From Pseudobacteriovorax antillogorgiicola (GTDB taxonomy: Bacteria; Bdellovibrionota_B; Oligoflexia; Oligoflexales; Oligoflexaceae): DNA of 64,000 nucleotides. Below are positions 553 through 5,543 of this stretch, one piece after another. The stretch spans positions 1 to 64,000 of the forward strand of contig NZ_FWZT01000005.1 in assembly GCF_900177345.1 (NCBI RefSeq), in the 5' to 3' direction. Under the pieces are notes generated by a model. The model did not search any database. It saw only the letters and a program-made list of their open reading frames with translations, and was not told where the DNA came from. How positions within the stretch are numbered: position 1 is the stretch's first letter; each line of letters starts with the position of its first letter. Both the position numbers and the translations under genes were made by a program.

Positions 553-1005
553 TTAAAAAAGAGTAGCTCTCTTTTTGCAATTTTGTTCAACTACATCTTT
601 TAGAATCGAGTATTCTGTACCTTGACTAACTTCTATTGCAGAATATGAAAACTCTCCTCTCAGACCAATCTTGATAACGAGATTTTTTTTGATAACTTTC
701 TCAGATGTTAACTTAGATCTCGGGGAAACCGACTGTTTAGTATATAATTTCGTTTTCTCTATTACATCTGCAGTTGCCTTACTTTGAATCGAGTACCGGT
801 TGGGGTATCCAGGATCATATCTAATTGAGACTATATAGGGCCCAGACAATGAGCAAGTGGTGTCACTGTAGGAATCGTATATCAACTTTGTTCTACCGTT
901 GTGCTTAAGAACTGTCACTTCCATTCCTATAATTTTCTTCACTTCATCAACGATAGTACAACTAGATAAAAATAGTAGAGCAAGAATAGTTCCTAACCTT
1001 TCCAT
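553..1005 (-). CDS. small hypothetical lipoprotein
   Basis: This 150-residue protein has a lipoprotein signal: a short hydrophobic stretch ending in lipobox LSSC with Cys16. The rest has two Cys residues (CSL near the middle and NCKK near the end) and alternating beta-like hydrophobics. I recognise no family. It lies 50 bp downstream of the large Cys-rich secreted protein on the same strand and may share its transcript. Together with that gene it sits between two IS remnants, so it is probably accessory DNA. Confidence 0.68.
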   Translation of the reverse strand: MERLGTILALLFLSSCTIVDEVKKIIGMEVTVLKHNGRTKLIYDSYSDTTCSLSGPYIVSIRYDPGYPNRYSIQSKATADVIEKTKLYTKQSVSPRSKLTSEKVIKKNLVIKIGLRGEFSYSAIEVSQGTEYSILKDVVEQNCKKRATLF

Positions 1006-1055: not shown

Positions 1056-4000
1056 CTATTCACTTAGAATCATTCTTGGTAACTGACTTTCAAGTGTATT
1101 GTTAAGAAAGCCACTTCCTATTGGGGGTGGCAAGTCTCCTGGACCTGAATTACACTGACCTGGCATGTAGATTATGTATGGGTCATTACAGAAGTCGTAC
1201 TCAGTAACTACATCACTCAGCTGGCCATCATGATAGCAACTATCAGATGGGGTATAAGAATATGGGTCACAAAGGTCATCAGGCTTTACCGTGATAATTG
1301 GTCTTCCTGAGTATGTCTCGCTAGCGAGTGCAGGGTCAACGCATAGACCAACCTCTCCTCCCGGGCATTCGGTAATTACAGATTCGAAGTACTTGCCATT
1401 ACCACCAAAGTAGTACTGCATAGTGGAGTCATGTTGTTGCATAATGTCCCACATTTCTTCAGAAGTACATCCTTCACCCCCACTACCACCATAGGGGTCA
1501 CCATATGTGAACCTAGCTATAGGATCTGTCGCCCCACCAGGACCAGATCCGCAGTGTAAGTCAAATGAAACGTTATCCGACTGGTCAGGAACTGAACCAC
1601 CACAGTGTTCTGGTTGTGGATTCTGGTCACAGCCGTCTGAACTATCTGCATCTTCTTTCTCTTCAGCTTTCCTCCTCTCCTCTTCTTCTTTCCGTTTAGC
1701 CTCTTTCTCGGCTTCAGACTTTCTAGCTTCTTCTTTTGCCTTTTCGTATGCAGCATCGCGTCTAGCTTTGTCATTCTCTTCTCGCTTATCACGCTCATTT
1801 TCGGCTTCTTCCAACTCTTGCCGCGCCTCATCGCGATCATCAAACCAAGAGCCACCGGTGGGGTGGGGTTTGCCATCATGAATTGCTCTATCAATTTTAT
1901 CTAACTTGTCCCATGCTCTGTCTACTTCGCTATTGTAGAAATCCCTCGGCTCAGCTTCAGTATTCATACCTTCAGATTCAAATGCAGACTCAAGAATGTC
2001 TAAAAATGGAACAGCATTTTTAAACTTCTTCGCAGCATCTCCCAAATAGAAGTCCTTTTCAATGGCATCTGTAGCTTGCTTTTTTGCTTCATCAACCAAT
2101 GGCTTCCAAGTATCCTTAGACTTATTAAAGTCTCCCTTGAATTCTTCCCAGGTGTTATCGCTGGCAGACTGACAAACTCCTCCGCAAGGTGTTGTGCCAC
2201 CACTTGAGAAAGGGTCGGTAGGACCTTGTTTAAACATCCAATTATCTAAACTCCAAGTGGCAAACTCGGAAGGACTAATGCCAAACTCAATAGCTAGTGA
2301 AGTACCAATATTGCTGTCTACTCTATTTAGGATGGATAAAGAAGCAGTCATAGCACCACGATTGCCATCTTCAAAAGATCTTGCTGTCATGTAGTATAGA
2401 TTCTTGGCAATAGACCCTAAGCCGTATTCTTGATACATCTTGTTAATTGAAGCAAATGCGTCGAAGTAGTCGTGTCCTAGGTATTCAGCTAGTTTAGCAT
2501 ATTCTGAGAACACTTCGGAAAGTTGAGCTTCAGTAAGTTCTTGATAGCCGTTAGAATCCCGTATCTTCAAGCTCTGATCCCAAAGCTTGTAGTAGTTTTT
2601 CTTTAGTACAAGCTTGAGTTTTCCATATAGAACCCCACCTTCTTGTTTTGCAGCGACTCTCACGCTTCTATTGACGAAAACTATGTCTTTATCTCCGTCA
2701 CCATCGCTATCGGCGATGACCGGATGAAATGATCGCCAATCGCCGGACTGCTCGCTCCATAACCTAACACTATATCCTAAGCCTTCTCGTCGATAAATAT
2801 AAGTCGAGTTAAGCTTGTCCGAGAGAATAGAAATTGAAACATCAGCTTGACCATCAACATCAAAATCAATACCGGAGAAACGACAGCATCTCTTACCGGG
2901 CTCCACGATATCACGGCAGTAAGGTGGCTCTTCTACGAAAGCGATAGGAGGGTTGATGAAGTCTACACTATTCGAAAATCTCATTCCATCTTGCTGGTAA
3001 AAGACATTCATGATTCCAGATTTTTCTAGAACTAGATCCATCCTACCGTCTGAATCTACATCAGAAATGGATTGATTCCATAGATTCCATTTTGCACCCA
3101 CTTCGATGGAATCAAAAAAGACTGGATTACTAGTCAGTGATTTTGCTATCGCTATCTGAAACTTAGTATCAGATGCACAAGTGAAGAGAAACTCGTTAGA
3201 TCCATCTCCATCTAGGTCCACACTATCTCGATTAACTATACTGTTTGCTTCGCATTGATATCTTTTTTCACAGCTTGCATAGAACTGACCTGAAGGCTCG
3301 TAACTCGTTCGTGTTTGATTAATGCACCTTGTACTAATATCAGTTTGCTGGCACTGGGTACCTATCGTTTCTGTGATTCCCGTCGTATAAACCCTAGTGT
3401 AAGATAGCTCGCCATGAAGTTCCGTAGAAGAGCAGTTTGCGCCGAACCCATAGACAATATGGTCATTAGTGCCATAAAGGTAGAAGGGATTCGGTTGTGG
3501 CGGAGTTGTTGGAAACAAAGTCGGAGATGTCATATAAATATTCTGCGGTGTGCTATCACATGAATCAAATGAGAATTGAGATTCTTTTTCAACTTCAAAT
3601 TCTCCATCATAACAGTACCTTACTTCAGTATCCGACTCACATATTTCAGCTGAACTGGCTGACGAATCTTTATACTTTAATTCTACTACTTTTCTTCCAT
3701 GACCGATATGCCCACAGGACTTGGGAGGCAGGTTTTCACAGGAGCTAATATAGTCGGAGCTTGGATCTACCTCAATAGTCCCGTTATTACAGTAACCTAT
3801 GGTAACCTTTCTGGTGCAGATATCTTTATGAGCAACTACCTTGCTCTCGAATCCATAAAGCTCCACTTCGTCTCCGTGAGGTGTGTCGCCGCAGCTAAGA
3901 TAGCCAGCTTTGCAGCTGCTTGGTTTAGATGAGCTCCATTCAATGTTTCCACTTTCACATGTACCCACCTCGGTAACTTCAACACATTCACTTCCATAAG

Positions 4001-4502
4001 GAACCAGCTCACTCTCGAATGCAGTTCGTGTTATCGTTGACTCATGAGGAACTTCTCCACCTCTACAAGCAATCTTCAAAGCTGGTTCTTCAATTAAGTA
4101 TGGAAAGAAGTCAGTAGAAGCTACCTGTCCCGTCGAGTTTTGTGCCGTCAGGCGAACCATGAAACCTTCTGGAATAGGAAACATGTAAGGCTCACCCACA
4201 AAATATCCATTTTCGTTTTTAGAAAGAGGAAACGTCTCTCCAAACTGATTTTCCCCTGTCAAAATTTGGGCTTCGGCACTGATTTCGAATTCGTTTTCGG
4301 TAGATGAGATGAAAGATATTTTAGGGTTGTATACGTTGCACTCTTCGGAAAATGATCCTTGGTCCCATAGTATTGTTCCGTTTTCGCAAACTCCGTTCTG
4401 TACAACCCTTTCACAGGTATCTCCTTGAGACACAAGCTGAGATGTGAAACCCTCTCGCGACGTAGATTCACCATGACTCAACTCGTCTGAGCAGGATAAC
4501 AT
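1056..4502 (-). CDS. large modular Cys-rich / FG-GAP secreted protein (main frame)
   Basis: This 1148-residue frame has no signal peptide. Its true N-terminus almost certainly lies in the separate frame at 4523-4915 (see there). Four Cys-rich repeats at about residues 4-55, 146-197, 204-255 and 263-315 share the pattern C-x(4-6)-H-G/E, later C-x(7-8)-C, then G-x-I/F and a last Cys. Between repeats 1 and 2 (about 57-139) lies a domain with FPIPEGFMVRLTA. Residues about 425-630 hold FG-GAP/VCBS-type calcium-binding loops such as DLDGDGSNEF, DVDSDGRMDL and DSDGDGDKDI. About 900-965 is a highly charged Lys/Glu/Arg coiled coil. A Gly- and Cys-rich tail follows. I know no protein with this order. 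It looks like a surface or extracellular protein of unknown function. Confidence 0.75.
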   Translation of the reverse strand: MLSCSDELSHGESTSREGFTSQLVSQGDTCERVVQNGVCENGTILWDQGSFSEECNVYNPKISFISSTENEFEISAEAQILTGENQFGETFPLSKNENGYFVGEPYMFPIPEGFMVRLTAQNSTGQVASTDFFPYLIEEPALKIACRGGEVPHESTITRTAFESELVPYGSECVEVTEVGTCESGNIEWSSSKPSSCKAGYLSCGDTPHGDEVELYGFESKVVAHKDICTRKVTIGYCNNGTIEVDPSSDYISSCENLPPKSCGHIGHGRKVVELKYKDSSASSAEICESDTEVRYCYDGEFEVEKESQFSFDSCDSTPQNIYMTSPTLFPTTPPQPNPFYLYGTNDHIVYGFGANCSSTELHGELSYTRVYTTGITETIGTQCQQTDISTRCINQTRTSYEPSGQFYASCEKRYQCEANSIVNRDSVDLDGDGSNEFLFTCASDTKFQIAIAKSLTSNPVFFDSIEVGAKWNLWNQSISDVDSDGRMDLVLEKSGIMNVFYQQDGMRFSNSVDFINPPIAFVEEPPYCRDIVEPGKRCCRFSGIDFDVDGQADVSISILSDKLNSTYIYRREGLGYSVRLWSEQSGDWRSFHPVIADSDGDGDKDIVFVNRSVRVAAKQEGGVLYGKLKLVLKKNYYKLWDQSLKIRDSNGYQELTEAQLSEVFSEYAKLAEYLGHDYFDAFASINKMYQEYGLGSIAKNLYYMTARSFEDGNRGAMTASLSILNRVDSNIGTSLAIEFGISPSEFATWSLDNWMFKQGPTDPFSSGGTTPCGGVCQSASDNTWEEFKGDFNKSKDTWKPLVDEAKKQATDAIEKDFYLGDAAKKFKNAVPFLDILESAFESEGMNTEAEPRDFYNSEVDRAWDKLDKIDRAIHDGKPHPTGGSWFDDRDEARQELEEAENERDKREENDKARRDAAYEKAKEEARKSEAEKEAKRKEEEERRKAEEKEDADSSDGCDQNPQPEHCGGSVPDQSDNVSFDLHCGSGPGGATDPIARFTYGDPYGGSGGEGCTSEEMWDIMQQHDSTMQYYFGGNGKYFESVITECPGGEVGLCVDPALASETYSGRPIITVKPDDLCDPYSYTPSDSCYHDGQLSDVVTEYDFCNDPYIIYMPGQCNSGPGDLPPPIGSGFLNNTLESQLPRMILSE

Positions 4503-4522
4503 TTCTGGCTCTGTAAAAGGCT

Positions 4523-4915
4523 CTAAGTCGGGTTTTCTTCCAGATACCGAAAAAATTCTGTTCTTCTTACAATCCCAGTTTCACTGGTTGCGGTAAGTCT
4601 CACTAGAAACCCGCTTGGAATAGGGAATATGGGGAGATGATCGCCGGTAAAGTATCCGTCAGGATGTTTGGCTAGCATGAAGCTTTCACCGTATGTGTTC
4701 TCCCCAACAAGAGTGCTAGCATCAGCTAGTATCCGAAAAGAGCTTTCAGATGTATGCTCATCAATAAACGTAATATTGGGATCATAAGCTTCGCTTTGCG
4801 CAACTAAAGCTGTAGTTGCAACTGTCTGTAGAAAAACAAAGCAGACAACAAATGATAAATCGATATATTTTGCAAAATGGCTTACAAAGCCCATGAAGTA
4901 TCGTTGCACCTTCAT
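4523..4915 (-). CDS. 5' frame of the same Cys-rich secreted protein: signal peptide plus first FPIP domain
   Basis: This 130-residue frame starts with a signal peptide (hydrophobic core FVVCFVFLQTVATTALVAQ). It continues with an 85-residue domain, ITFID...GENTYGESF...FPIPSGFLVRLTA...EFFRYLEE, that closely matches residues about 60-139 of the next frame. It ends at TAG 4523-4525. In the -1 frame the protein continues without a stop through KPDLEPFTEPE into the MLSCSDELSHG start of the 1148-residue frame, which restores the FPIP-domain/Cys-repeat order seen in the second copy. The two frames are therefore one gene, either broken by a one-base change or joined by frameshifting. The start lies inside the truncated IS6 element, so its original promoter may be lost. 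Confidence 0.7.
   Translation of the reverse strand: MKVQRYFMGFVSHFAKYIDLSFVVCFVFLQTVATTALVAQSEAYDPNITFIDEHTSESSFRILADASTLVGENTYGESFMLAKHPDGYFTGDHLPIFPIPSGFLVRLTATSETGIVRRTEFFRYLEENPT
4529..4535 (-). other. frameshift site, A AAC CCG slippery-type heptamer
   Basis: On the minus strand the zero-frame codons read GAA GAA AAC CCG ACT TAG. The bases A-AAC-CCG fit the X-XXY-YYZ pattern for simultaneous -1 slippage, and the -1 frame is exactly the frame of the downstream 1148-codon ORF. The stop lies one codon after the heptamer. I see no strong stem-loop at the usual 5-9 base spacing and no strong upstream Shine-Dalgarno-like stimulator. A plain one-base deletion (for example in the A4 or C3 run) is equally compatible. 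Confidence 0.5.
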
Positions 4916-5488
4916 TGGAGTTTTCCCCTTAGATGGTTTGGCTTTATTGATAATGCGATTTTCTTGTTAGGTACAAAGCATATCGGTGAGACTTTTGACG
5001 ATTCGTGGAGGGTTGATGAGACTTACGTGAAAATTAAAGGTCGATGGAACTATTTATACAGAGCTGTCGACAAGGAAGGCTGCACCATCGACTTTAACCT
5101 CTCAGTGCATCGGGATCAGTTGGCGACAGCTAGATTCTTCAAAAAAGCCTTAAGAGCTGATCACAGTGAGGTCCCAAGGGTGATAAACGTTGACAAGAAT
5201 GCTTCTTACCCACCAGCTATCGAGTCTGCGAAGGAAGCCGGCTACCTGCCTGAGGGAACGGAACTCAGGCAAGTGAAATACTTAAATAATGGCGTCGAAT
5301 CGGATCACAGGAGGATCAAAAGACTCATTAACCATGGTCTTGGCTTCAAAGGCTTTTGGACAGCCCACAAAACGATTCGTGGGTACGAAACAATGCATAT
5401 GATTCGCAAGGGGCAGGTAACGGGGCCCCACGGATCTTATATGGAGCAAGTTAGATTTATCGAAGAAGTATTCGGAGTCGCTGCCTAA
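4877..5488 (+). pseudogene. IS6-family transposase, 5'-truncated
   Basis: From about residue 41 the frame is a typical IS6/IS26-type DDE transposase: WRVDETYVKIKGRW (first Asp), VDKNASYPPAI (second Asp) and NNGVESDHRRIKRLI (Glu). The family's N-terminal HTH region, about 70 residues ahead of WRVDET, is missing. The first 40 codons are unrelated sequence shared with the opposite-strand start at 4915, so the ATG at 4877 is not the native start. The catalytic triad is intact but the protein would lack its DNA-binding part, so this is a remnant left by a deletion or rearrangement. Confidence 0.78.
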
Positions 5489-5529
5489 GCCCACGTTTGA
5501 CCCAAGCATACTCTCAGCTCATTCGAATT

Positions 5530-5543
5530 GTTGCACCAGAACC
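5530..5543 (+). repeat. right terminal inverted repeat of the IS6 remnant
   Basis: The sequence GTTGCACCAGAACC, whose complement is GGTTCTGGTGCAAC, matches the usual form of IS6-family ends and lies about 40 bp after the transposase stop, as expected. No left partner is found between 4500 and 5000, which agrees with loss of the left end. Confidence 0.6.

Follow-up and report, generated by a model that had tools for sequence, protein, structure and literature searches.

On the minus strand of the first contig part of Pseudobacteriovorax antillogorgiicola analysed here (NZ_FWZT01000005.1, positions 1 to 64,000; this whole stretch of 64,000 nucleotides is called the window), an ORF that starts with a signal peptide stops one codon after a heptamer of the slippery type, and the -1 frame continues into an ORF of 1148 codons. 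This raises the question of whether the locus holds one gene disrupted by an indel, one gene read by ribosomal frameshifting or two separately translated genes. The layout itself is not in dispute: both ORFs, the in-frame heptamer next to the stop and the -1 frame that stays open into the long ORF had been described in the initial annotation, and all were recovered (Table 1).

Table 1. Features of the split gene and its surroundings (positions in the window).
Feature	Position	Strand	Remarks
IS3-family element, right end, at contig edge	1..384	+	
Small putative lipoprotein gene, downstream of the split gene	553..1005	-	150 aa; no family match
-1 open frame	1056..4580	-	first ATG 4502; ORF 1056-4502 = 1148 aa
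Contents of the -1 frame		-	Cys repeats, second FPIP domain (~4343-4074), FG-GAP repeats, charged region, C-terminal Cys/Gly region
ORF 1: signal peptide and first FPIP beta-sandwich domain	4523..4915	-	130 aa; ATG 4915 preceded by SD-like AAGGGG
A_AAC_CCG heptamer at the frame break	4529..4535	-	extended site is single copy in the genome
IS6-family remnant without its left part; keeps the right end and a C-terminal portion of the transposase	4996..5543	+	

The start of the open -1 frame at 4580 and the zero-frame stop at 4523 delimit an overlap of 58 nt, in which the transition between the two must lie. Here, AAACCCG (4535-4529) is read in the phase A_AAC_CCG and is followed by ACT and the stop codon TAG (4525-4523). 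It is the only in-frame XXXYYYZ motif of the 130-codon ORF; five others occur in the 1148-codon ORF.

The position of the break can be narrowed down further by homology. The split gene contains two copies of the FPIP domain that are ~51-52% identical (ORF 1 residues 40-129 versus 4343-4083), and the order of FPIP domain followed by Cys repeat indeed recurs further on, as had been proposed. At the end of the first copy, the zero-frame TEFFRYLEE aligns with TDFFPYLIEEP of the second FPIP domain, and likewise with TEYFAYLDEEP and TKYFRYLVDEP of a Pseudobacteriovorax relative. These comparison copies (the second domain and the two domains of the relative) continue in a single frame. As all four FPIP copies compared end in (F/Y)FxYLxxxP, the zero frame must be the right one up to and including FFRYLEE, which leaves 4540-4523 for the break; there it coincides with the end of the FPIP domain. 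Judged from these alignments, the -1 frame shows itself to be the correct one after FFRYLEE. The homology is thus continuous across both frames, and the two ORFs are one gene that is broken within 4540-4523. The split near 4529-4540 in the initial annotation is supported by this homology as well as by codon usage, whose score around the junction drops for the zero frame and climbs for the -1 frame (a weak signal over ~150 nt on each side). By codon usage, the two parts are both rated as coding, with scores (0.15 and 0.13) within the range of the other genes (0.09-0.26). The T6 run (4555-4550) was also considered as the site of the break, but was rejected because homology holds the zero frame through YLEE.

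The first FPIP domain was modeled with AlphaFold2 as a beta-sandwich (pLDDT 81, pTM 0.73), so the 130-residue product would contain one whole domain after the signal peptide. A fold search with this domain yielded weak immunoglobulin-like and expansin-like matches only (none at E <= 0.001), and no matching model was found in Pfam and NCBIfam.

Relatives were searched in a set with one genome per species, in which the genus was represented by no further genome. Neither the 58 genomes of the class and phylum nor the GTDB contigs, plasmids and viral contigs yielded an orthologue or an intact homologue of full length; the same collections contained distant Cys-repeat or FPIP-domain proteins only. 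The split gene is an orphan. The relative compared above belongs to the same family and is named Pseudobacteriovorax sp. DT_89 in the contig scan; its secreted protein of 493 residues (L042, JABSRP010000010.1) has two FPIP-type domains, ending in xYFxYLxxEP. Identity is 29-32%, the protein differs otherwise in architecture, and its frame is unbroken. Elsewhere in the P. antillogorgiicola genome, a Cys-repeat paralogue of 954 residues (L023 1272-4136) has an intact frame and a different C-terminal domain.

Very probably, then, the locus represents a gene for one secreted multidomain Cys-rich protein that was disrupted by an indel. The homology runs continuously over two frames, and the first ATG of the second ORF lies 20 nt past the stop, without a clear SD or a signal peptide. 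The gene is located between IS remnants, and no sigma-70-like promoter was found upstream of it on the same strand (only this promoter type being searched). Singleton frame breaks in the GeneTack scheme are usually indels, sequencing errors or overlapping gene pairs (PMC3711429). Originally, a single gene would have encoded the whole protein. The loss of a single base after the YLEE codons and before the TAG (4540-4523) would then have separated the reading frame of the first ~127 codons from that of the remainder. In this state, the cell would make only a secreted fragment of 130 residues (signal peptide and one beta domain); from the present sequence, the large part would be neither made nor exported. 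A recent real mutation, and thus a pseudogene, is more likely than an assembly error. If it is a mutation, the remainder of 1148 codons without further damage suggests that the break is recent. Some observations stand against the indel: the genomes searched offered neither an intact orthologue nor a second strain with an uninterrupted frame, the break lies precisely where a domain ends, and a heptamer is present there.

The surroundings of the gene are marked by decayed mobile elements, which fits with a loss of selection on the split gene but does not prove it. The IS6 remnant lies ~80 bp upstream of the gene's ATG, and its homology to other copies extends from ~4996-5000 to ~5540. A transposase ORF of 203 residues (4877-5543) is part of this truncated element; its first ~40 codons extend, on the opposite strand, into the part of the split gene that encodes the signal peptide, and no transposase match was found there. 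Two facing IS6 right ends were observed ~1.4 kb apart at another locus (L014 30-141 and 1501-1610; G000 C2 160333-161913); the interval contains no full transposase match. Directly 3' of the split gene's stop is a strong hairpin (GGAAGGC-TTCG-GCCTTCC, 1030-1050), which is terminator-like without a T run. The remaining pairs of adjacent frames in the window mostly resemble ordinary overlapping gene pairs, as far as can be said without gene-by-gene confirmation. No widespread frame errors were thus seen in the window, which speaks against general sequencing trouble.

How surprising is the heptamer at the break? In-frame heptamers occur in the window at 0.0036 per codon, which gives a chance of ~2% for six codons and of 6.6% for the 19-codon overlap. 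When one-base losses were simulated in the real genes of the window, an in-frame heptamer was found at <=9 nt in 2% of the cases overall and in ~8% of the losses that hit a run of four or five bases. With chance rates of 2-8%, the motif is mildly but not strongly surprising, and, as losses favor runs, the heptamer constitutes weak evidence. It is probably there by chance.

The rival explanation that would give the heptamer a role is programmed -1 ribosomal frameshifting at A_AAC_CCG, which would yield the full-length protein in addition to a short secreted domain. The perfect heptamer lies in frame within the overlap, one codon before the stop and inside the only stretch that homology permits; the downstream frame is the -1 frame, is long and is intact, and the short product would, according to the model, comprise one whole domain. 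The motif class, however, is unfavorable. By the rules given in a survey that covered all 64 heptamers in E. coli (PMC4066793), CCN and GGN codons in the A-site shift less than AAN and UUN, and mixed purine/pyrimidine ZZN codons as well as mixed X/Z motifs also shift less. A_AAC_CCG is mixed on both counts and by these rules falls into the poor class; the related A_AAC_CCA is given there as not reaching the threshold in E. coli even when combined with the IS3 pseudoknot. Stimulatory elements were not found either. Starting with the CCC of the heptamer, a stretch of 83 nt folds with -16.1 kcal/mol versus a shuffle mean of -18.2 (z +0.77), so that among nested structures no stable downstream fold was found. 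A stimulatory SD is spaced about 10-14 nt upstream of the slippery motif; none was found at this spacing, and the SD-like GGAAG directly abuts the heptamer. Moreover, the motif could be a coincidence at the rates above, no conservation was seen (no orthologue being found) and the split gene does not belong to a class of genes known for recoding. Programmed frameshifting is therefore considered very unlikely, and so is a low-efficiency use of the site that supplies a short secreted domain next to a full-length surface protein. Between the two readings of the initial annotation, mutation (or error) is thus favored, and recoding had the motif as its sole support.

Gene fission, with two separately translated proteins and a coupled restart of the second ORF at ATG 4502, is very unlikely as well. 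The short distance between TAG and ATG and the break at a domain boundary would suit such a restart, but 4502 lacks a clear SD, and the Cys-rich product would lack a signal peptide. Furthermore, the -1 frame from the break to the ATG reads as a linker, which a restart at 4502 would leave untranslated. Least credible is reversible phase variation via slipped-strand mispairing: the protein is of the secreted, surface type and A4, C3 and T6 runs are nearby, but all of these runs are short, and homology assigns residues downstream of the T6 to the zero frame.

Disruption by an indel thus remains the preferred reading, and in that case the split matters for annotation only: the two ORFs should be treated as one disrupted gene, and the 1148-residue protein without signal peptide should be viewed with caution. 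Should recoding prove true after all, it would extend -1 frameshifting to a gene that encodes a secreted protein, is not mobile and carries a motif regarded as a poor one in bacteria. The known genes with programmed -1 frameshifting (dnaX and the IS3/IS1 transposases) also contain an in-frame X_XXY_YYZ in the overlap and continue in the -1 frame; the split gene differs from them by its weak motif class, by the stimulators that were not found and by not being a mobile-element gene. From the frameshifted pseudogenes and singleton fs-genes of the GeneTack classes (PMC3711429) it differs as an orphan without a full-length intact homologue for comparison, but it is like them in having no conserved frameshift cluster, two overlapping frames and a break at short runs.
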